DNA from: Mesorhizobium atlanticum | Lineage (GTDB): Bacteria > Pseudomonadota > Alphaproteobacteria > Rhizobiales > Rhizobiaceae | Assembly: GCF_003289965.1 (NCBI RefSeq) | Contig: NZ_QMBQ01000010.1 | Location: 124,001-188,000 of the forward strand | DNA: 64,000 nt | Direction: 5' to 3' | In this document: piece by piece, positions 37,185-57,748 of the stretch | How positions within the stretch are numbered: position 1 is the stretch's first letter | How the letters are laid out: the number at the start of each line of letters is the position of its first letter | The notes under the pieces: generated by a model | The model's input: the letters and a program-made list of their open reading frames with translations, nothing else | The model's database searches: none | Told to the model about the DNA's origin: nothing | Translations under genes and position numbers: made by a program

Positions 37185-37360
37185 GGACATCACCGAGGCG
37201 AAGAATGTGCCTCCATAGAGAACCTTTCTGACTGGCCAGCCCACGACTGTGCGCGGAAAGCCACATTCCCAAGAATAGCTGAACCGGTTGGAGGGCGCAT
37301 TGGTTGACAGCACAGGATGTTGTGAGATCATCCGGCGGGGATTTTGCAGGAGAGCTTGGC
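37185..37360 (+). promoter_or_regulatory. Upstream region of peptide 1, with duplicated promoter
   Basis: Two blocks are shared with the region before peptide 2. GGACATCAC (37185-37193) with ATGTGCCTC (37205-37213) is one. The promoter TTGACA (37304-37309)-N17-ATCATC (37327-37332) is the other, 57 bp from the T to the ATG in both. The sequence between the blocks is not conserved. AGGAGAGC is the ribosome site. Confidence 0.6.
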
Positions 37361-37462
37361 ATGAAGAAAGTCTACGAGAAACCCACTTTGGTTCTTAGAG
37401 GCAGGCTTGGGGCGATCACCGCCGCGAATGCCCCGGTGGTGTTGTCCAACCCGCCGCAATAA
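37361..37462 (+). CDS. Putative RiPP-like precursor peptide 1 (33 aa)
   Basis: A 33-residue peptide, MKKVYEKPTLVLRGRLGAIT then AANAPVVLSNPPQ. The first 20 residues match the pattern YxxPxLxxxGxLxxxT, which in lasso-peptide precursors is the part recognised by the RiPP recognition element. The remainder would be the core, but it has no Asp/Glu for a lasso ring, so a classical lasso peptide is unlikely. AGGAGAGC precedes ATG 37361. A paralogue lies at 39215 with the same promoter geometry. No modification enzymes are seen nearby. Confidence 0.6.
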   Translation: MKKVYEKPTLVLRGRLGAITAANAPVVLSNPPQ

Positions 37463-37602
37463 TGCGAGGCTCCCGCCAAGCAGGAGCAATCATTCCTTGG
37501 CGTGATGCAATTCCAAAACGGCGTGCGGGCGCTTCCGGCCGCAATGCCGGGACAAGATGCCGATGGCACTCCGCCGCACTGGCCAAAAGGTGGCCACGCC
37601 GC

Positions 37603-38790
37603 TCAGCGCGCCAGCACAAGATCGTCCAGCACGAGCTGCCAGTAGTGCCTTGTTGAAACGCGCACGCGCGTAACAGCCTTCAGCATGGGCGCGTAGTGGA
37701 CGGGCGCCAGCGCCGATAGCATCACCTCATCACTGGCGACGAGTTCGTCGCCCAGCCAGCTTTCAATCAGCGCCAACTCGCCTTCCGATCTCAGCCAGGC
37801 GGCGGTCAACATGACCGAATGAAAGCCGAAGGGCGTCGCGCCGCCGAACTCGGCCGGGTGACCGCTGCTGGTATAGGCTGCGTGGTCGCCGCGGATGCTG
37901 CCGTTGAGATAGCCCTCGCTCTCCTTGACGTAGTTTCTCGCGATGGCGTTGATGTTGCGCCACTCCAGCCCGGCATGGCCGGAAGGCACTTTCTTGAAGT
38001 CGAGCGATGTGACGTCGTCAAAGCCGATCCGCGACAGCACGGCCTCGTCGTCGATTGCGCCCGGCCTCAGTTCGCCGAGGTCGGTAGGATAGGGAGAAAG
38101 CGCCAGACGCCGCCCGATATCCGCGCCGGAAATCTCCAGTGTGTCGGCCTCGTCCGGGAGGTGGAAATGAAAGCTGCCTGCCGCGAGCGGCAGGGTCTGG
38201 AGCAGTTCACCCTTGCCCATCACCTTCAACGTCGCCTGCGCCGATGCCGGGACCCTGCCGCTCAGGCTGCGCCCCGGGACCAGCCCGACAAGTCCAGGCA
38301 GATCCTCTCCCACCAGGCCGGCGGGCGACCCCGGCAATTCGACGAGCCGCAACGTCTGGCTTTCATTGCCCGTGCTCACGCGCCAGCCCCTGGGAACCGA
38401 CACCGCAAACCGGTAGTGACCAGCAGCGCGGAGGCTTGCCCAGCGCTTCCTGGTCGACATGAGGAAGTTGGCGAAGCCGGAACTGTTGCTACGGGTCGAA
38501 GTGATGAACGTGCCCCTGTCGTCGAAAACCCGTACAACGATGCCGCCCATCGGCCGGTCCGCCTCGCCGAACCGACCGTCGCCGTCGACATCCATGAAGA
38601 CGAAGGACGAGTAGTTCAGCGCCTGGCCACTGGCGGACCAGTCGGTGCGGACGTGATAATCGTGGCTGGGGTCGGCGCTGCGGCGCAGCTTTCGGCGCTT
38701 GCGGCGCCGGCGCAGGGCCAGCGCTATGAGCGCAATGGCGCCCGCAAGCACGAGCGCTGTGACGACCAGGGCAAGGGCTTTATCGGCCAT
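37603..38790 (-). CDS. Membrane-anchored protein with SdrD-B-like domain
   Basis: A protein of about 395 residues. Start ATG 38790 gives an N-terminal membrane anchor (KALALVVTALVLAGAIALIA) followed by a very basic stretch (RRRRKRRKLRR); an ATG at 38805 is also possible. Then comes an SdrD-B-like (transthyretin-like, calcium-binding) domain, 'FVFMDVDGDGRFGEADRPMG' with 'GIVVRVFDDRGTFI'. A beta-rich second half of unknown type has no membrane segment. The gene lies between the two RiPP-like peptides and runs opposite to them. An extracytoplasmic structural or adhesive role is likely; function unknown. Confidence 0.75.
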   Translation of the reverse strand: MADKALALVVTALVLAGAIALIALALRRRRKRRKLRRSADPSHDYHVRTDWSASGQALNYSSFVFMDVDGDGRFGEADRPMGGIVVRVFDDRGTFITSTRSNSSGFANFLMSTRKRWASLRAAGHYRFAVSVPRGWRVSTGNESQTLRLVELPGSPAGLVGEDLPGLVGLVPGRSLSGRVPASAQATLKVMGKGELLQTLPLAAGSFHFHLPDEADTLEISGADIGRRLALSPYPTDLGELRPGAIDDEAVLSRIGFDDVTSLDFKKVPSGHAGLEWRNINAIARNYVKESEGYLNGSIRGDHAAYTSSGHPAEFGGATPFGFHSVMLTAAWLRSEGELALIESWLGDELVASDEVMLSALAPVHYAPMLKAVTRVRVSTRHYWQLVLDDLVLAR

Positions 38791-38995
38791 AGCGCCCGCG
38801 GCCATCACAGCCGCCCAGCTGGTTGCCGGCGCCGCTGTCCCGGGGCTTGGCGAAACAGACAATGCCGACGACGAGCATCGCCAGCGCAAGCAGCCTTTCC
38901 GTCGATCTTTGCATCGGTCTCCCCCGCGCCCCTCGCCGTCCGATGGCGGCAAGCGGCCAATATCCTAGCCGAGCCCTCCGCCGTGGCGAAGTGCC

Positions 38996-39214
38996 GGACA
39001 TCACAGAGAGGCCATAAATGTGCCTCGATAGATCCCTGCCGGCTCCCGGCGATATATTCCGCATCCGGCTCCAGCCGCCGCGACCATCACACCATTGGGC
39101 GACGGTTACTTCAGCAGAACGCTGTCCCCAGGAAACAAAACGGCCCTCGCCGCTTACTTGACAGGAACTGGTCACATGAGATTATCGGACAGGATTTTCG
39201 AGGAGAGCAATCGC
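38996..39214 (+). promoter_or_regulatory. Upstream region of peptide 2, with duplicated promoter
   Basis: GGACATCAC (38996-39004), ATGTGCCTC (39018-39026) and the promoter TTGACA (39158-39163)-N17-ATTATC (39181-39186) correspond to the blocks before peptide 1. The -35 T to ATG distance is 57 bp in both. GAGGAGAGC is the ribosome site. The first block lies also upstream of the oppositely oriented SdrD-B gene and might serve it. Confidence 0.6.
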
Positions 39215-39295
39215 ATGAAGAAGATTTACGAGAAGCCGGTTTTCGTCCGCAAGGGCAAGCTTTCGGCGATTGTGGCCGGTTCGCAGCCCGTCTGA
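39215..39295 (+). CDS. Putative RiPP-like precursor peptide 2 (26 aa)
   Basis: A 26-residue paralogue of peptide 1: MKKIYEKPVFVRKGKLSAIV then AGSQPV. It keeps MKKxYEKPxxVxxGxLxAI but the Thr is Val and the C-terminal part is shorter. ATG 39215 follows GAGGAGAGC; an in-frame ATG at 39176 would add 13 residues but would start inside the promoter and lacks a ribosome site. An intrinsic terminator follows the stop codon by 31 bp. The leader-like half is conserved and the tail differs, as expected for a precursor family. Confidence 0.6.
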   Translation: MKKIYEKPVFVRKGKLSAIVAGSQPV

Positions 39296-41123: not shown

Positions 41124-42233
41124 TCACCCTGCCGTGCGCGCCATGTGCAAATCCACGAACTGTATCCCCTTTTGCGCAGTCCGTGCCCATTCGGACTCCG
41201 CGTCCAGCTCCAGATAACGCATCCATAACCGGCGGGCCTCCATCAGATTGCCCGCATCGAATTCCAGCCGGGCGAGATTGAACACCGGGTCGGCATAGGC
41301 CTTGTCGAGCGCGATCGCCTTTTGCAGATGGCGCCTTGCCGACGCCACCTTGCCCTCGTCACTCATCAGCCCGGCGAGGTTGAACCAGGCTTCGACGAAG
41401 CCAGGATCGAGTTTTATGGCGCGGGCATAGTCATGCGCCGCTTCGGCGATCCGGCCGGCGCCGCGCAGGCAGTTGGCGCGGTTGAAGGCGGCAATCGCAT
41501 CCTTCGGGTCGATCGCCAGGCAGCGCTGGTAGAGGACGGCCGCATCGTTGTGGCGCTCCTCCACTTCCGCCATCTCCGCTTCGGCGAAGAGTTCTTCCAG
41601 CGTGTCGTCTTCCGGCGAGCCGAGGTCGAACAGCAACTGGCCGTCGAGCTCGCTCGTCCCATCGTCGAGATAGATCGCGTCCGGGCGGCCATGCTGCGAG
41701 CCGAGATTGAGCGATTTTGCCGTGAGCGAGGCGACCGGGCCGGAGCGGTGCACCGAGCGCGCGATCGCCCCCCAGCTGGCGCCGCTGGCTATCAGCCCGG
41801 CATATTTGCGCGCAAGGATCAGGTCGCGGAAGGAATAGGGCTCGCCGTCATGCTCGAAGGCGTCGAACAGCGACAGCATGTCGAGATCGTCGCCGGCAAG
41901 CCGCGACTGGTCGATGAGCGATTGCCTGGAGAGCGACGAGGCGTCGGGCGCCTTCATCAGCCCGAGCAGGCGCAGGAAACCGTTCTCGCTGATGAGTTGG
42001 CGGCCGGCTTCGCGCTCGGCCTTGGCGCGGCGCTCGATCTCGGCATCGCCGGATTTCGCCTTGGCGAGAAGCGCGCGGCCGAACACGACATGGCTGGTGC
42101 GGCGGGTGACGCCGCGCCTCAGCTCCGCATGGCGGCGCTCGACCTCGCGCGCGGCAAGCCGCAAAGGAAAGGCGGCCAGCGCGCCGACGACGCCGAAGAC
42201 GGCGCCGGGAACGATCACCGGCCCTCCCGTCAC
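41124..42233 (-). CDS. Tetratricopeptide-repeat protein coupled to Ku
   Basis: A 369-residue protein. The first 25 residues could form a membrane segment (VIVPGAVFGVVGALAAFPL), followed by a coiled or helical basic part (REVERRHAELRRGVTRR...), a middle region of unknown fold, and four or so TPR repeats from about 230 (AAVLYQRCLAIDPKDAIAAF, HDYARAIKLDPGFVEAWFNL, RHLQKAIALDKAYADPVFNL). It overlaps the Ku stop by 4 bp (ATGA), so it is translated with Ku. TPRs suggest a protein-interaction role. The link to end joining is inference from the coupling. Confidence 0.82.
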   Translation of the reverse strand: MTGGPVIVPGAVFGVVGALAAFPLRLAAREVERRHAELRRGVTRRTSHVVFGRALLAKAKSGDAEIERRAKAEREAGRQLISENGFLRLLGLMKAPDASSLSRQSLIDQSRLAGDDLDMLSLFDAFEHDGEPYSFRDLILARKYAGLIASGASWGAIARSVHRSGPVASLTAKSLNLGSQHGRPDAIYLDDGTSELDGQLLFDLGSPEDDTLEELFAEAEMAEVEERHNDAAVLYQRCLAIDPKDAIAAFNRANCLRGAGRIAEAAHDYARAIKLDPGFVEAWFNLAGLMSDEGKVASARRHLQKAIALDKAYADPVFNLARLEFDAGNLMEARRLWMRYLELDAESEWARTAQKGIQFVDLHMARTAG

Positions 42234-43141
42234 TTCTTGCTCTTGCCGACGGCCTTCAACAGGTTCGCCTTCAGCGGGTTCTCAGGCGCCGCACCGCCGG
42301 CAGCCGCCTTCCTGGCGGGCTTCGCCGGCGCTTCCTCGGCCTTGCTTTTCGACTTGGCCGGAGGCTTTGCAGACTGCGACAGGCTCGCCTTCAGCGCATC
42401 CATCAGGTTGATGACATTGCCGCGCTCGGGTGCGGCCGCGATGATCGGCTTGTGGCCCTTCAGCTTCTCGCGGATCATCGCCATCAGCGCCACTTCGTAG
42501 CGATCCTCGTAGTTCTTCGGATCGAAGTGGGTTTCCTTCTGCTTGATCAGCGCCATGGCCAGCTCGAGCATTTCCGGATCCGGCTTGCCTGCCGGGATGT
42601 TGCCGAAATATTCAGCCGTGCCGCGCACTTCGTTGGGATTCCTCAAGGTGCAGACGAACATGCCGTTCTCGCGCGCGCCGATCGTCACCACGCGCTCGCG
42701 GCTGGAGAGCACCAGGCGGGCAATCGCCAGCTTGCCGGATTTGCGCATGGCCTCGCGCAGCACCGCGAAGGTTTCTTCCGCCATGGCGCCGTCGGGCGCG
42801 AGATAATAGGGCGAGTCCTGGTAGATGACATCGACCTCGCCCTCGTCGACGAAGGCCTCGATGTTCATCGTGTGGTTGGATTCGATCCTCACCGCGTCGA
42901 GATCGGCGTCATCGATGATGATGTACTGCTTGTCCTCGTATTCATAACCGCGCACCAGGTCCGAGCGCTCGACCAGGCCAAGCTCGGGATCGACCGGCTT
43001 CATGTTGATGCGGTTGTGCGTCTTCTTGTGCAGCTGATTGAACGAGATGCGCTCGCTCGCGCTGGTGGCCGGGTAAAGCCGGACCGGACAGCTGACGAGG
43101 CTGAGCTTGAGGTAACCTTTCCAACTTGCCCTGGGCGCCAT
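42230..43141 (-). CDS. ku: Ku protein, DNA end-binding factor of bacterial NHEJ
   Basis: A 303-residue bacterial Ku. 'SWKGYLKLSLVSCPVRLYPA' starts the barrel domain, followed by 'FNQLHKKTHNRINMKPVDPE', 'IIDDADLDAVRIESNHTMNI' and 'LVLSSRERVVTIGARENGMF'. The last 50 residues are a Lys/Ala-rich tail that binds DNA in this family. As a homodimer it encircles broken ends and recruits LigD. It is upstream of the TPR gene and 670 bp from ligD, all on the same strand. Confidence 0.95.
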   Translation of the reverse strand: MAPRASWKGYLKLSLVSCPVRLYPATSASERISFNQLHKKTHNRINMKPVDPELGLVERSDLVRGYEYEDKQYIIIDDADLDAVRIESNHTMNIEAFVDEGEVDVIYQDSPYYLAPDGAMAEETFAVLREAMRKSGKLAIARLVLSSRERVVTIGARENGMFVCTLRNPNEVRGTAEYFGNIPAGKPDPEMLELAMALIKQKETHFDPKNYEDRYEVALMAMIREKLKGHKPIIAAAPERGNVINLMDALKASLSQSAKPPAKSKSKAEEAPAKPARKAAAGGAAPENPLKANLLKAVGKSKK

Positions 43142-43171
43142 GACGAACTCCTACGCGGCCATGCACTGACA

Positions 43172-43288
43172 TTATGTTGGAGCATGGTCTTGTCCAAACC
43201 GGTTCCCGGTTTTTTGGGACCGTGCTCTTTATGTTGGAGCATGGTCCTATCCAAAAACCGGTTCCCACTTTTTGGGACCATGCTCATT
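43172..43288. repeat. Two tandem copies of a rhizobial 'AAACCGGTTCCC' palindromic repeat
   Basis: ATGTTGGAGCATGGTC...CCGGTTCCC...GGGACC.TGCTC occurs at 43173-43232 and again at 43233-43284. Each copy contains an inverted repeat GAGCATGGTC/GACC(G/A)TGCTC and the AACCGG core. They lie directly upstream of ku and could provide transcript structure. The end of the unit abuts another repeat region. Confidence 0.75.
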
Positions 43289-43430
43289 GCAGCGCTTCGC
43301 CCGTAGGACGATTGGCGCTCTGGAAATCCTACACCGACCCCTCACCTTACAGCCGAATTCCTAGCGAAGTGTTCTTGAGGGTGGGTTGGCGCGGAGGATA
43401 ATTCAAATTGTAGGAAGCGTCGATGGAGGT

Positions 43431-43455
43431 AGGCTACGGCGAAGTCGCCGAGCCT
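43431..43455. repeat. 25-bp hairpin, second copy
   Basis: Identical over 25 bp to 2693-2717: AGGCT and CGGCGA arms pair with TCGCCG and AGCCT, with one bulged A on each side. It is embedded in a degenerate family A unit: the flank CGTTCACATTTTTCGTGGCATTGC is close to that at 2720-2745. Confidence 0.8.
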
Positions 43456-43596
43456 AGCCGTTCACATTTTTCGTGGCATTGCGCTTGTTGCGAGATCGGC
43501 CAAAAGATCGGCCAATTTCCATATTCAGTTTAAAAAACCTCTTATGATTATACGGTTATAGGATTTCCAGATCGGCCAGAATTAGGAATCGAGTCG

Positions 43597-43809
43597 ATGG
43601 AAGAAAGCGTACAACGGATAGAGCCGGCCCGTTTGGTGGACGTGCCCGAGACGATTTCGGACGCCGTGGCGGAGCTTTCGGCGGCATCCGCGACTTTGGG
43701 CAACAGCCTCCATCCTCTCACGTCTCAAACGCCGAAGGGGCCCGTGTCCCTGCGCTTCCCTGTGGACGCACTAGACATCCTGTTTCCAAGACTCTTCCCG
43801 GAAACCTGA
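43597..43809 (+). pseudogene. Fic family protein remnant with internal deletion
   Basis: A 70-residue frame. Residues 1-45 (IEPARLVDVPETISDAVAEL, SAASATLGNSLHPLT) match the N-terminal region of long Fic proteins, where it is followed by the conserved MNxYYSNLIEGH segment. Residues 46-70 ('SQTPKGPVSLRFPVDALDIL', ending FPRLFPET) match the C-terminal winged-helix end. The whole AMPylation core (HPFxDGNG motif) is missing, so an in-frame internal deletion removed it. The product cannot be an active Fic enzyme. The assignment is by pattern memory and should be tested by alignment. Confidence 0.55.
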
Positions 43810-43811
43810 AG

Positions 43812-46301
43812 CTACCCGACCACCGGCAGATCCCTTGCAGCCTCATCGATCTCCGCCCAGGGATCGCCCGAGGTTTCGAGCAGCCCCGGCAGCGAGGCGT
43901 AGTTCAGGTCCTCAGGCGCGTCGATCGTCTCCAGGTCCGTCCAGCTCACCGGCGTCGAGGCCGGCAGGTTGGTGCGGGCGCGCAGCGAATAGGGCGCGGC
44001 CGAGGTGTGGCCGCGGGCGTTGCGGTGGAAATCGATGAAGATGCGCTTCTTGCGGTTTTCCTTGCCCATGGTCGTGGTGAAGGTGTCGGGCGCGCTTGCC
44101 GCGAGCAAAGTGGAAATGGCGCTCGAGGCCTGGTGCAGTTTCTTCCAGTTCTGCTTTCTGGTTACCGGCACGGTGATGTGGATGCCCTTGCCGCCGGAGG
44201 TCTTGACGAAGGGCACCAGGCCGAGGCTTTCCAGCCCGCCCTTGATGTGGACCGCAGCCTCCACCACCTCGCGCCACGAGATCCCCTCGCCCGGGTCGAG
44301 GTCGAAGACGATCTGGTCCGGCCTGTCGAGTTTTGTGCGGTGCGTGCCCCAGGTGTGGAACTCGACGACGCCGAATTGCGCCAGCGCCAGATAGCCCTTG
44401 GCGTCCTCGACCGAGAGATAGGTTTTCGTCTCGCCTTCCGAATTGACGCTCTCGAACACCGCCACCGAAGGCGGCATGCCGGTGAAAGCGTGGCGCTGGA
44501 AGAAGCAGTCCTGCGGTTTTCCCGTCGGACAGCGCACCAGCGACACGGGACGCCCGATGATATGCGGCAGCATGAAATCGCCGACCAGAGCGTAATAGAC
44601 GGCGATGTCGAGCTTGGTCGGCCCGGTCTTGCCGAACAGTCGGCGTTCCGGATTGGTCACCCAGATAGTGGCGAGGTCGGATTCAGCGATCAGCCGCTTG
44701 CGTTTGACCGGCGCCGGCGTGGTGAGCCCGCCGACATCGCGCAACCCCCGAAAGACGCCGTGGCGGATCGCATTGTCGGCGGTGCGGTTTGAATAGCGCA
44801 CGCGCGCCGACAGCAGCGGCTTCACCCAATGCATCTCGCGCATGATCTCGCGCGGCACGCCTTCAGGCGGGCTGGCGCCGGCCGTCAGCCGCTCCAGCCT
44901 GGCAAGCAGCTCGGTCGCCATGTCGCGGTCAAAGCCGGTGCCGACCTTGCCGCGATAATGCAGCTCGCCGTTCTCGAACTCGGCCATGCCAAGCGCGGCC
45001 AACCCTTCCGCCCGGTCGGAGACGGTGTAGCCGGCGATGACGAAATCGTCCGTCTTTTGCGCCTTCACCTTGGTCCAGCTCTTGGTGCGGCCGCTCATGT
45101 AGATGGCGTCGGCGCGCTTGGAGACGACGCCTTCGAGCCCCAGCTCCGAGGCTTGATCGTAAAGACCCTGCCCGTCGCCCTCGACATGGTCGCTGTACTG
45201 GATGGCGGCATTGGCGGCCTGGCCGGCGAGCAGCTCGGCAAGCAGCGCCTTACGCTTGATGAGCGGCGCCTTGCGCAGGTCCCAGCCGTCCAGATGCAAA
45301 AGGTCGAAGGCGTAGAAATGCAATTTCGAGCCGGCGCCTTCGGCCAGCGCGTCCTGCAGCAGCGCGAAGCGCGAGATGCCCTTGTCGTCGAGCACCATGA
45401 TCTCGCCGTCGATGATCGCTTGGGCGACCGGCAGGCGCGAGAACGCCTGCGGGAGATCGCCATAGCGCTTCGTCCAGTCGATGCCGCCACGGGTGATCAG
45501 CCGCACCTCGCCATCCACCACATGCGCCATGGTGCGATAGCCGTCGAATTTGATCTCGTGCAGCCACAGCTCGCCCGTCTTCTCCGCCGGTCCCTCGCCG
45601 CCCGGAGGCTTCGGCACCTGGGTGGCAAGCTGCGGCTCGATGCGGCTCGGCGGATCGCCTTTTACCGCGCCGGGCAGCGCGCCCGGTTTTAGCGAGCCCG
45701 GCTTGGGCGGCAGGCGTTCCCGCTTCCTTGGCGGCGCCGCCAGTTCCTCGATGCGACGGCCGGACTTCACACTTTCCGGCCGGGCTTCGAGAATGTCGAG
45801 CTTGGTGTCCGAAGCGAGGTCGCGCTCCTTGAACAACAGCCAGTTCTTCTTGTTCTCGTCCTCGCCGGGCTTGGGCTTCAGCCTTGTCAGCATCCAGCCG
45901 CCATTCAGCTTCTCGCCCGCCAGCCGGAACTTGAAGGCGCCGGTCCTGAGGCTCTTTTCGACGTCCTCCATCGGCGCCCAGGTGCCGGTGTCCCAGACGA
46001 TCATCGGCCCGCCGCCATATTCCCCTTCGGGGATGACACCCTCGAAGTCGATATATTCGATCGGGTGGTCCTCGGTCTCGACGGCAAGCCGCTTGTCGGC
46101 CGGGTTGAGCGACGGCCCGCGCGGCACCGCCCAGCTCTTCAGCACGCCGCCGATTTCGAGGCGCAGGTCGTAATGGTCGGCGGTGGCCTGGTGCTTGTGG
46201 ACGACGAAGCGGTTGGAGCCCTCGCTGGCGGTGCTGCCTGCAGGCTCGGGAGTGCGGGAGAATTCGCGCTTGGCGCGGTAGGATTTGAGGTTGGCGGGCA
46301 T
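43812..46301 (-). CDS. ligD: ATP-dependent DNA ligase LigD (3'-phosphoesterase, ligase and polymerase domains)
   Basis: An 829-residue multidomain NHEJ ligase. PE domain (about 29-160) has 'FVVHKHQATADHYDLRLEIG' and 'GVLKSWAVPRGPSLNPADKR'. The ligase domain (about 220-520) has the nucleotidyl Lys at HEIKFDGYR (K251), followed by 'IIDGEIMVLDDKG' and 'EGVVSKRADA'. The polymerase (AEP) domain (about 545-829) has the metal pair in VFDLDPGEG and 'VKTSGGKGIHITVPV'. Order PE-LIG-POL is that of Pseudomonas and rhizobial LigD. Works with Ku in double-strand break repair. Confidence 0.95.
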   Translation of the reverse strand: MPANLKSYRAKREFSRTPEPAGSTASEGSNRFVVHKHQATADHYDLRLEIGGVLKSWAVPRGPSLNPADKRLAVETEDHPIEYIDFEGVIPEGEYGGGPMIVWDTGTWAPMEDVEKSLRTGAFKFRLAGEKLNGGWMLTRLKPKPGEDENKKNWLLFKERDLASDTKLDILEARPESVKSGRRIEELAAPPRKRERLPPKPGSLKPGALPGAVKGDPPSRIEPQLATQVPKPPGGEGPAEKTGELWLHEIKFDGYRTMAHVVDGEVRLITRGGIDWTKRYGDLPQAFSRLPVAQAIIDGEIMVLDDKGISRFALLQDALAEGAGSKLHFYAFDLLHLDGWDLRKAPLIKRKALLAELLAGQAANAAIQYSDHVEGDGQGLYDQASELGLEGVVSKRADAIYMSGRTKSWTKVKAQKTDDFVIAGYTVSDRAEGLAALGMAEFENGELHYRGKVGTGFDRDMATELLARLERLTAGASPPEGVPREIMREMHWVKPLLSARVRYSNRTADNAIRHGVFRGLRDVGGLTTPAPVKRKRLIAESDLATIWVTNPERRLFGKTGPTKLDIAVYYALVGDFMLPHIIGRPVSLVRCPTGKPQDCFFQRHAFTGMPPSVAVFESVNSEGETKTYLSVEDAKGYLALAQFGVVEFHTWGTHRTKLDRPDQIVFDLDPGEGISWREVVEAAVHIKGGLESLGLVPFVKTSGGKGIHITVPVTRKQNWKKLHQASSAISTLLAASAPDTFTTTMGKENRKKRIFIDFHRNARGHTSAAPYSLRARTNLPASTPVSWTDLETIDAPEDLNYASLPGLLETSGDPWAEIDEAARDLPVVG

Positions 46302-55612: not shown

Positions 55613-57748
55613 TCAGGCGGCCTCGTCGACCAGCATGGCGCCGGTCGGCAGCCGCCCCATGACGGAGACCGCTTCCGAGGTCGAGGCGACGTCGCGCATC
55701 GGCGTCGCGTTCAACCTGGCGACGAGCAGGATCTCGTCGGCCATGGCGACCAGCGGCAGGACGTTGAGGTCGTCGGCCAGGGCGCCGCCGTCGACGACGA
55801 CGAGCTCGAAGCTGCGATTGGCCTCGGCCAGCATGCGGTGGGCGAAATAGAGCGCCTGCGCTTCCTGGAACACCGCCGCGGGCCGGCCCCGGCCGATGAG
55901 CGCGACGGAACTGCCGGGCGCATAGCGGCTGACCGCGTCGAGCGGATATTCGCCGCGCAGCACGTCGAGCACGCCGGGCTGCGGGTCCTTCTGGCCCTTG
56001 CCGGCATTGATGTCGATGAACAGCACGCGTCGCCCCCTGGCCGCCGCCGCGTTGGCGAGCTGCCACGCGACCCTCGAGCGCTGCGCCTTGTCCTCGGGTG
56101 GCGACGCGACCAGGATCGAAGGCACCAGCGGCCAGTCGGGCGGACGCCTTGTGGTGGCGGCGATGCGCTGCAGCGCCAGTCCGGCCACGGCGTCGGTCTT
56201 TTGCGCCACGCCGCCCGCGCGGCCGAAGCGGCGGCGTCCCCTGCCCGGCAGCACGCCCAGCACCGGCGCCTCGATGGCCGACTGCATCTGGTTGGCGGAA
56301 AGCACGGTCGGCGAAAGATATTCGGCGATCAGCGCCATGCCGATGCCCAGCGCCAGCCCGCCGAACACGGCGCCGAACACAAGCAGCCCCTTCGGCGGCC
56401 AGCTCTTCTTCAGCGCCGGCATGGCTTCGGAGATGATGCGGGCATTGGTGCTGTCGACATTGGTCTGCTCGCGCGTTTCCTGGGCGCGTTGCAGGTAGTT
56501 GGCATAGACGGTGCGCACGGCGTCGAGGTCGCGCTGCAATTCGCGCAGGCGCACCGAAGCCTGGTCGGTATCGAGCGATTTCGACTTGAGCGCCGCCACC
56601 TTGGCCTGCAGCGCCTGCTGGTTGGCCAGGGACCGCTCATAGTCGGTTTCCGCCGCGGTGACGATGCGGCCGAGCTCGCGCTGGATCAGCGCGCGCAGGT
56701 CGCGCAGCTGCTGCTGGGCGGCGATCATCGAGGGGTGGCGCGGTCCGAGCCCGGTGCCGAGCTGGGCGATCTGGTCGACCAGCGCCGCTTCCTGTGCCCT
56801 GAGGCTCGAAATCGTCGAGGAGCGCGTGGCTTCCGAGGTCGCATCCGGCGCGCCGCCCTGCCTGCGCAACTGATCGACCTGCGCCTTGAGCTGCTGGGTG
56901 CGCGCCTGCGCGGCGGTCAGCTCGGCATTGAGCCCGGTCAGTTCCTGGTCGCTCACCAGATTGCCCTGGGCCATCACCATGTTGTGCTGCGAGCGGTAGG
57001 CCTCGACGGCGTTCTCGGCCTGCTCGACGCGCTTGCGCTGTTCGTCGAGCCGCGCGGTGATCGCCTCGGAGGCCTTGGCCGCCTTTTCCCTGCGCGCGTA
57101 GGCCTGGTCGGCAAGGTAGGCGTTGGCGATGGCGTTGGCGATGTCCGACGCCTTCTGCGCGCTCTTGGCGGTGATGATGATGTTGAGCACCAGCACCTTG
57201 TCGTCGCGCTTCACCGCGAGCACGCGTCGCAGCGAATCCAGCGTGGTTGCCGCCCTGTCGCTCTCATTGTCGCCGAAGATCATGCCCATCCAGCGGCCGA
57301 GAACGCCCTGCCCGTTGAACTCCGGATCCTCGGTGAGGTTCTTCGCCTTGATCGCGCGCAGCAGGACGCCGTTCGACTGCGCGACGCTGACCTGGCTCTC
57401 GACCTGGGTGATGCCGCCGTCGGGCGAGATGCGGCTCGGATTGACGTCGTTGGTGACGACCTGGAGGTCCTCGGGATCGACGATGATCTGCGCCGTCGAG
57501 GAGTAGAGCGCCGGCGTCAGCATGGTGTAGACGAGCGTCGCGGCGGTAAGCAGCGCTGAGACGGCGAGGATCAGGAAGCGGCGCCGCAACAGGATGCGGC
57601 CGAGATCGCCAAGCTCGACCGTGGCCGACGCTGGCGCGGGCGCGTAGTAGGCTGGCGCCGGCGCGACCGCCTCCGAAGCGTTCTGCTGAGGCACCATGAG
57701 CAGGGGTGGTTGCAAAGGTCGCTCCGACAACGCTCCATCGGCCGGCAA
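55613..57748 (-). CDS. Wzz/exopolysaccharide chain-length protein with degenerate BY-kinase domain
   Basis: A protein of about 711 residues with two membrane segments (about 58-78 and 435-455) framing a large periplasmic coiled-coil region (200-400), the Wzz/GumC pattern. The cytoplasmic C-terminus (from 510) resembles tyrosine autokinases, but the Walker A motif is absent ('VASPPEDKAQRSRVAWQLAN' where GKS/T should be) and there is no Tyr-rich tail. So it probably regulates chain length without kinase activity. TTG 57748 is the start taken; ATG 57697 is possible. Confidence 0.85.
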   Translation of the reverse strand: MPADGALSERPLQPPLLMVPQQNASEAVAPAPAYYAPAPASATVELGDLGRILLRRRFLILAVSALLTAATLVYTMLTPALYSSTAQIIVDPEDLQVVTNDVNPSRISPDGGITQVESQVSVAQSNGVLLRAIKAKNLTEDPEFNGQGVLGRWMGMIFGDNESDRAATTLDSLRRVLAVKRDDKVLVLNIIITAKSAQKASDIANAIANAYLADQAYARREKAAKASEAITARLDEQRKRVEQAENAVEAYRSQHNMVMAQGNLVSDQELTGLNAELTAAQARTQQLKAQVDQLRRQGGAPDATSEATRSSTISSLRAQEAALVDQIAQLGTGLGPRHPSMIAAQQQLRDLRALIQRELGRIVTAAETDYERSLANQQALQAKVAALKSKSLDTDQASVRLRELQRDLDAVRTVYANYLQRAQETREQTNVDSTNARIISEAMPALKKSWPPKGLLVFGAVFGGLALGIGMALIAEYLSPTVLSANQMQSAIEAPVLGVLPGRGRRRFGRAGGVAQKTDAVAGLALQRIAATTRRPPDWPLVPSILVASPPEDKAQRSRVAWQLANAAAARGRRVLFIDINAGKGQKDPQPGVLDVLRGEYPLDAVSRYAPGSSVALIGRGRPAAVFQEAQALYFAHRMLAEANRSFELVVVDGGALADDLNVLPLVAMADEILLVARLNATPMRDVASTSEAVSVMGRLPTGAMLVDEAA

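Follow-up and report, generated by a model that had tools for sequence, protein, structure and literature searches.

Two short peptide genes of Mesorhizobium atlanticum as probable dispersed precursors of a cyclase-less, lasso-related pathway

Two short genes and their family

A 64,000-nucleotide stretch of the Mesorhizobium atlanticum genome (assembly GCF_003289965.1, contig NZ_QMBQ01000010.1, positions 124,001 to 188,000; hereafter the window) carries two very short genes, here called A and B, whose peptides share a leader. An initial annotation had proposed them as precursors of ribosomally synthesised and post-translationally modified peptides (RiPPs) with a lasso-type leader. We confirmed both frames, at 37361 and 39215, with their translations, and the arrangement in front of them as read from the sequence: a TTGACA-N17-ATnATC promoter, 57 bases from the start of TTGACA to the ATG in both genes, and the same ribosome site, AGGAGAG. 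The evidence presented here makes it likely that A and B are scattered genes for precursors of a lasso-related RiPP pathway that has no cyclase and whose enzymes are encoded elsewhere in the genome. The features are as follows, with leader and core divided at predicted cleavage sites according to the 21-residue leader seen in 165 of 166 sampled family members.

37361..37462, plus strand: precursor peptide gene A, 33 residues, MKKVYEKPTLVLRGRLGAITAANAPVVLSNPPQ (family-model match E 7.6e-13)
37361-37423, plus strand: predicted leader of A, 21 residues
37424-37459, plus strand: predicted core of A, ANAPVVLSNPPQ, followed by the stop codon
37304..37332, plus strand: promoter of A, TTGACA-N17-ATCATC
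37348..37354, plus strand: ribosome site of A, AGGAGAG
39215..39295, plus strand: precursor peptide gene B, 26 residues, MKKIYEKPVFVRKGKLSAIVAGSQPV (family-model match E 1.8e-13)
39215-39277, plus strand: predicted leader of B, 21 residues
39278-39292, plus strand: predicted core of B, GSQPV, followed by the stop codon
39158..39186, plus strand: promoter of B, TTGACA-N17-ATTATC
39201..39207, plus strand: ribosome site of B, AGGAGAG

The initial annotation had suggested searching the genome for more such peptides, and there are five copies in all, three of them outside the window (C29:161361 and C29:163215 in the window, then C29:233817, C24:421162 and C13:747434). With a 29-position family model they score E 6e-15 to 8.4e-13, the next match standing at E 0.019; the leader pattern with up to three mismatches occurs at six places in the genome versus one for a reversed control. 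Homologous short frames are also common in relatives, 67 of 99 genus genomes holding 524 copies at E<=1e-6, or 3-20 per carrying genome, some in tandem runs (four in genome G036, for example). A plasmid collection returned three records matching a consensus-like peptide, all from Mesorhizobium. The best place is annotated as 'putative RiPP precursor' in one of them (WP_258589678.1, NCBI) and unannotated in the other two, and the peptides have thus already been noticed in annotation through this NCBI name. Pfam gave one weak match below cut-off for peptide A and none for B. The NCBIfam lasso leader model scored the window peptides at 14 bits, below its cut-off of 19, which was passed by one of seven family members tested later and by the precursor of the complete lasso cluster described below.

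Leaders follow the consensus MKKIYEKPxLxKRxKLSxVTA, in which Lys3, Tyr5 and Pro8 were fixed by the extraction pattern, so that the YxxP part defines the set. The anatomy sample left out two of 168 peptides (47 and 62 residues), and one of the remaining 166 lacked the anchor. Across 161 distinct sequences Leu16 is invariant, with Thr (121) or Val (36) predominating at position -2 and Ala (157) at -1. The cores, 5-16 residues long, are rich in Ser, Pro and Gly. By the plain rule, all 212 distinct Mesorhizobium peptides have a Ser after residue 21; by an anchored split, it lies in the core of 209 of 210, with two peptides unanchored and ten loci (other genera or no locus) left out. Core position 5 is Ser in 115 of 161 distinct cores, and A and B are atypical in having their first core Ser at positions 8 and 2, respectively. 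Selection on the peptides, which the initial annotation had named as a critical point, is evident: leader dN/dS is 0.09 among the seven sequences of gene B's group (gene B included) and 0.09-0.29 across six partly overlapping groups, indicating purifying selection on the leaders, with core pN/pS in the same six groups running from 0.12 (conserved) to 0.95 (nearly free).

Enzyme sets elsewhere in the genome and their link to the peptides

The window was said to lack any B, C or PqqD-like enzyme, and this holds for tblastn at E<=1e-3 with both B1, both B2, the cyclase, both kinases, the transporter and the nucleotidyltransferase as queries. Outside the window, the three gene kinds that had been proposed as targets for a genome search (PqqD-like RiPP recognition element (RRE), asparagine-synthetase-like and transglutaminase-like) are all present, in two sets. 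The first (type 1; C23:482751-488550, equal to L113:12752-18551) is a complete lasso cluster with precursor, B1, B2, cyclase, HprK-like kinase and ATP-binding cassette (ABC) transporter; its cyclase matches NF033535 at 774 bits (cut-off 525), and its own adjacent, longer-core precursor has the leader YETPSLTVHGSIETIT in a sequence beginning MEQNVEKHEYETPSLTVHGSIETITQGGAGTTALDV. The second (type 2; C23:456295-459042) lies about 24 kb away and has no cyclase beside it:

C23:458728-459042, minus strand: type-2 B1 (RRE), PF05402 at 45 bits
C23:458297-458731, minus strand: type-2 B2 (leader peptidase), NF033537 at 67 bits (cut-off 33)
C23:457308-458300, minus strand: type-2 HprK-like kinase, by kinase motifs and modelled fold
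C23:456295-457320, plus strand, convergent: type-2 NTP_transf_5 gene, 90 bits

Between the two sets are exopolysaccharide-type genes, one GumC-like (TIGR01005, 550 bits) and others named by reading. In the type-2 loci retrieved from genomes of the 99-genome set, the block is flanked, wherever the stretch is long enough, by acyl-CoA-synthetase-like and dihydroxyacetone-kinase-like genes, also named by reading.

The type-2 B1 resembles the solved RREs TfuB1 and TbiB1. In the type-2 B2, Cys74 and His111 are present in 15 of 15 sequences and Asp117 in 14 of 15. In all 25 kinase sequences compared, which include four from lasso clusters, the GxGK loop, His137, Thr162 and Asp177-Asp178 are kept. The kinase model built from this 25-sequence alignment reaches a predicted local distance difference test score (pLDDT) of 91.6; an earlier one, from 14 close sequences, was too poor to use (pLDDT 51.6). 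Against HPr kinases the model aligns over 135-140 residues with Z 13.3-13.6 and a root-mean-square deviation (rmsd) of 2.5-3.0, and against phosphoenolpyruvate carboxykinases over its whole length with Z up to 16.0 and an rmsd of 4.6-5.4 in most rows. When solved structures were searched by sequence, the kinase profile gave weak and mixed matches (best E 0.07; HPr kinase 0.08) and B2 was unmatched.

PqqD (90 of 99 genus genomes) and Transglut_core3 (78 of 99) are both widespread in the genus. The presence of the type-2 B2 agrees with that of the peptides in 99 of 99 genomes (67 with both, 32 with neither; Fisher p 1e-26), the type-2 group being the 67 genomes with PF13471 matches of 41.8-49.5 bits. 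Genome G090 was left out of that group; it has a 26-bit match, no peptides and no NTP_transf_5. A comparison of the tables shows that NTP_transf_5 occurs in 67 of 99 genomes, the same 67 as the peptides. Across the order, nine of 297 genomes have peptides and 13 have the kinase, the nine all falling within the 13. When 385 genomes of the class were searched for the kinase, only the genome under study matched at E<=1e-20; this search was insensitive because at most five candidates were scored per genome.

These distributions bear on whether the peptides are instead extra precursors of the true type-1 lasso pathway (B1-B2-C-kinase-ABC transporter), cyclised in trans, which we regard as quite improbable. 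Their leader motif is of the same class, the genome does hold a complete cluster with a cyclase well over the NF033535 cut-off, and 64 of 99 genus genomes have both kinds of B2. The type-1 B2, however, is found in 74 of 99 genomes (three of them, G016, G020 and G121, with distant clusters at only about 30% similarity to that of M. atlanticum) and disagrees with the peptides in 13, ten having it without peptides and three having peptides without it. In a cyclase search of 12 genomes, six peptide-bearing ones (G063, G091, which is 79% complete, G092, G141, G228 and G337) gave no match over the curated cut-off. A lasso-like core (Gly, Ala, Ser or Cys at position 1, Asp or Glu at positions 7-9, at least 13 residues) was found in none of the 161 distinct cores, among which Asp or Glu at 7-9 occurs in 16 and a small first residue in 70; moreover, the type-1 cluster has an adjacent precursor of its own. 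On the co-occurrence mismatch, the core pattern and the peptide-bearing genomes without a cyclase over the cut-off we rejected cyclisation by the type-1 cluster. The lasso-type leader first proposed is well supported; a lasso product, with no cyclase in the stretches around the 71 loci described next either, is not.

Physical linkage was examined in 71 Mesorhizobium-type loci (67 from Mesorhizobium and four unclassified, taken from the 80 retained of 81 relatives found). All 71 contain the kinase and the transferase, and none of the 71 stretches, reaching up to 10 kb on each side, contains a lasso cyclase. In 19 loci a precursor sits on the same strand as B1 and less than 400 bp upstream of it; in 15 one lies 2.5-4.6 kb downstream of B1, and 29 loci have a precursor in either position. 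Beyond Mesorhizobium, the enzymes have neighbouring precursors in Kaistia terrae, K. defluvii, Aquibium sp. ELW1220 (five in tandem, L325:11217-12029), Ahrensia (two), a Hyphomicrobiales metagenome-assembled genome (L328) and genome G228. Precursors with more divergent leaders lie next to the block in Ancylobacter, which has two, in G174, which has three, and in G373, which has six in tandem. At 57 of 66 loci the stretch also contains, somewhere along it, a relative of the lasso ABC transporter; where its position is given (L318-L321 and L323) it is several kb off the block, at 27-29% identity.

Linkage and co-occurrence leave little room for the view that these are small proteins with a regulatory or structural role that resemble RiPP leaders by chance. 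The copies are indeed mostly scattered and many have their own promoter, as such proteins might; an exact co-occurrence together with linkage to RRE and B2 genes in several families, and a leader that is conserved beside a variable core, render this barely credible. A less remote, though still unlikely, alternative is that the RRE and peptidase trim the leader and leave the tails unmodified as short linear signal or effector peptides, the kinase and transferase acting elsewhere, for example on polysaccharide intermediates. The position of the block near exopolysaccharide-type genes such as the GumC-like one would suit it, as would the Aquibium cores, which mostly lack Ser. It sits poorly with a kinase and transferase at every Mesorhizobium-type locus, a transferase that co-occurs exactly with the peptides, and a Ser kept in all 212 otherwise varying Mesorhizobium cores, and related kinases phosphorylate a precursor Ser (PMC13381572, PMC9266682).

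Modification in trans, as initially suggested, is well supported by the RRE, leader peptidase, kinase and NTP-transferase genes found elsewhere in the genome, by their exact co-occurrence with the peptides in the 99 genomes and by the precursors that adjoin them at part of the loci.

Separately, a second precursor subgroup, MTKKxYxAPVLRKxGKLSxV, adjoins the type-2 NTP_transf_5 gene at L117, L121, L126 and named loci such as L255, L265, L275, L278 and L315.

A candidate pathway and its known relatives

By analogy with the linear polyphosphorylated peptides (LPP) of Bacillota (Popov et al. 2026, PMC13381572) and with pseudomycoidin, the dispersed precursors of a cyclase-less pathway would be handled as follows. 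The RRE protein B1 would bind the YxxPxL leader, and B2 would cut after residue 21, where -2 is mostly Thr or Val and -1 Ala, to free the core, 5-16 residues long. Phosphorylation of the conserved core Ser would fall to the HprK-like kinase, and the NTP_transf_5 protein may attach something more, for example a sugar or a nucleotide; no ring would be made. The predicted product is a linear, leader-cleaved, Ser-phosphorylated peptide, perhaps also glycosylated, and a single enzyme locus would serve many scattered precursors, five of them in the genome of M. atlanticum. Any link to the neighbouring exopolysaccharide genes is a guess. In a wider view, which we hold in even balance, this is a separate Hyphomicrobiales RiPP family in which one RRE-B2-kinase-NTP transferase block modifies in trans fast-changing, scattered precursors, many with their own promoter, to yield a mixture of short linear phospho- or phosphoglyco-peptides that differs from strain to strain and is perhaps connected with exopolysaccharide or with recognition of kin or competitors.

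In LPP, LppK phosphorylates core Ser3, an RRE-assisted peptidase removes the leader, and the system is called restricted to Bacillota (PMC13381572). LPP and the type-2 system share a discrete RRE, an HprK-like kinase and an NTP transferase with no macrolactam synthase needed, a YxxP leader and a variable core with Ser, and both occur alongside a lasso cluster and polysaccharide genes. They differ in the peptidase of the block, which is a lasso-type B2 here and SipW-like (SpI) in LPP (no SpI search was made here); in the transporter, which is MsbA-like and within the cluster in LPP and is missing from the block here, with the lasso-transporter relative noted above lying elsewhere in most stretches; in core length, 45 residues in the LPP studied versus 5-16; in the leader, YxxPxVLxHQxIxFETxxS in LPP versus the consensus given above; and in taxon, Bacillota versus Alphaproteobacteria. 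Here, in addition, precursors are mostly scattered, at 3-20 per genome. Judged by its genes, the type-2 system would work like LPP but fails the LPP leader motif, holds a B2 and falls outside the stated taxon.

The phosphorylated (and glycosylated) lasso peptides pseudomycoidin and paeninodin (PMC8498205, PMC9266682) likewise have B1, B2 and an HprK-like kinase, with a nucleotidyltransferase in pseudomycoidin, where PsmN attaches hexoses to the Ser that carries the phosphate (PMC9266682). Unlike the peptides considered here, they are threaded rings made by the cyclase C and carry the phosphate on the C-terminal Ser, whereas at the type-2 locus there is no cyclase and the Ser lies inside the peptide, most often as the fifth core residue (the 115 of 161 noted above). 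The type-1 lasso cluster of the same genome is alike in its B1/B2 pair, kinase and YxxPxL leader with Thr at the predicted -2 position, and unlike in its longer-core precursor, its over-cut-off cyclase and its ABC transporter.

Several observations weigh against a cyclase-less pathway of Ser phosphorylation served by dispersed precursors. Agreement in 67 of 67 genomes of one genus does not amount to 67 independent events; kinship inflates the p-value, and physical linkage therefore weighs more. No precursor lies beside the block in 42 of 71 loci, that of M. atlanticum included, and none was found adjoining it at L322, L326, L327 (the last two being short stretches), G255 or G256; L322 also shows no NTP_transf_5 gene. 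Four of the 13 kinase-positive order genomes had no peptide match by the model; two of these have divergent linked precursors, and in the other two, G255 and G256, none was found. The kinase falls below NCBIfam cut-offs (30 bits versus 200) and matches no Pfam HPr kinase family, and the type-2 block has no exporter gene. The search model includes core columns, which could have favoured Ser-bearing copies. Four of the five Aquibium cores lack Ser and carry Thr, four sharing VT(L/V)I; they are perhaps a Thr-modifying variant, beside which stands the report that the LPP kinase did not accept Thr (PMC13381572). Lastly, G063, G091, G092 and G141 gave weaker asparagine-synthase-type matches below the cyclase cut-off, which may be other asparagine-synthase-like genes; G228 and G337 had no cyclase match at all.

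Among the open PMC papers listed in our literature searches, we found no report that ties these peptides to the type-2 enzymes or describes a cyclase-less pathway in Alphaproteobacteria. If the proposed pathway is real, cyclase-less, lasso-related phosphopeptides would exist outside Bacillota, the phylum to which the single described family we found (2026) was said to belong exclusively, and would rely on another leader peptidase; tiny Mesorhizobium genes in their hundreds would also be explained. Its many-precursors-one-machine layout would be overlooked by cluster-based mining because most precursors lie away from the enzymes. It is also open to simple testing by genetics, in a nitrogen-fixing genus that has been well studied.

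Promoters and surroundings of the genes

The TTGAC of the promoter seen before A and B recurs in most of the family, lying upstream in 163 of 217 distinct Mesorhizobium regions; in an earlier set it was present in 119 of 164, at -54 to -67 in 110 of these, against 5% in single-base shuffles. Relatives of gene B at L017, L194, L199, L209 and L216 keep both TTGAC and GAGAT(T/C)ATC. A second promoter type, GGAAC-N17-GTT, precedes 23 of 217 regions versus 0.4% in shuffles. All 23 of these copies have TAQI..SG cores, and they include the M. atlanticum copy at C13:747434 (L006, L116). We take GGAAC-N17-GTT to fit the consensus of the alphaproteobacterial general stress sigma factor, under which the TAQI..SG group apparently stands.

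Further upstream, the initial annotation had reported GGACATCAC followed at 20-22 bp by ATGTGCCTC before both genes. The pair is there, start-to-start at 20 bp for gene A and 22 bp for gene B, and is far less general than the leader or the promoter.

37185..37213, plus strand: block GGACATCAC-N11-ATGTGCCTC upstream of gene A (GGACATCAC at 37185, ATGTGCCTC at 37205)
38996..39026, plus strand: block GGACATCAC-N13-ATGTGCCTC upstream of gene B (GGACATCAC at 38996, ATGTGCCTC at 39018)

No further copy of either 9-mer was found on the plus strand of the whole window. In the set of loci compared, the intact pair occurs only before A and B, and relatives at L193 and L199 are preceded by versions with three substitutions. 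Genome-wide, with up to three mismatches allowed, the form with the 13-base spacer is perfect only at gene B and recurs with three mismatches at two other places. A regulon signature is thus unsupported, the intact pair being confined to the two window genes among the loci compared, and the block is perhaps a remnant of duplication.

Between A and B, on the minus strand (37603-38952), runs a frame of 449 residues that weakly resembles SdrD_B (E 1e-4, under the cut-off). The minus-strand neighbours at 42230-46301 look like genes for Ku and for a multidomain DNA ligase (LigD), presumably a non-homologous end-joining pair. Farther along the window (56246-57535, minus strand) there is a GumC-like exopolysaccharide chain-length homolog that shares 27% identity with the GumC-like protein near the type-2 locus.

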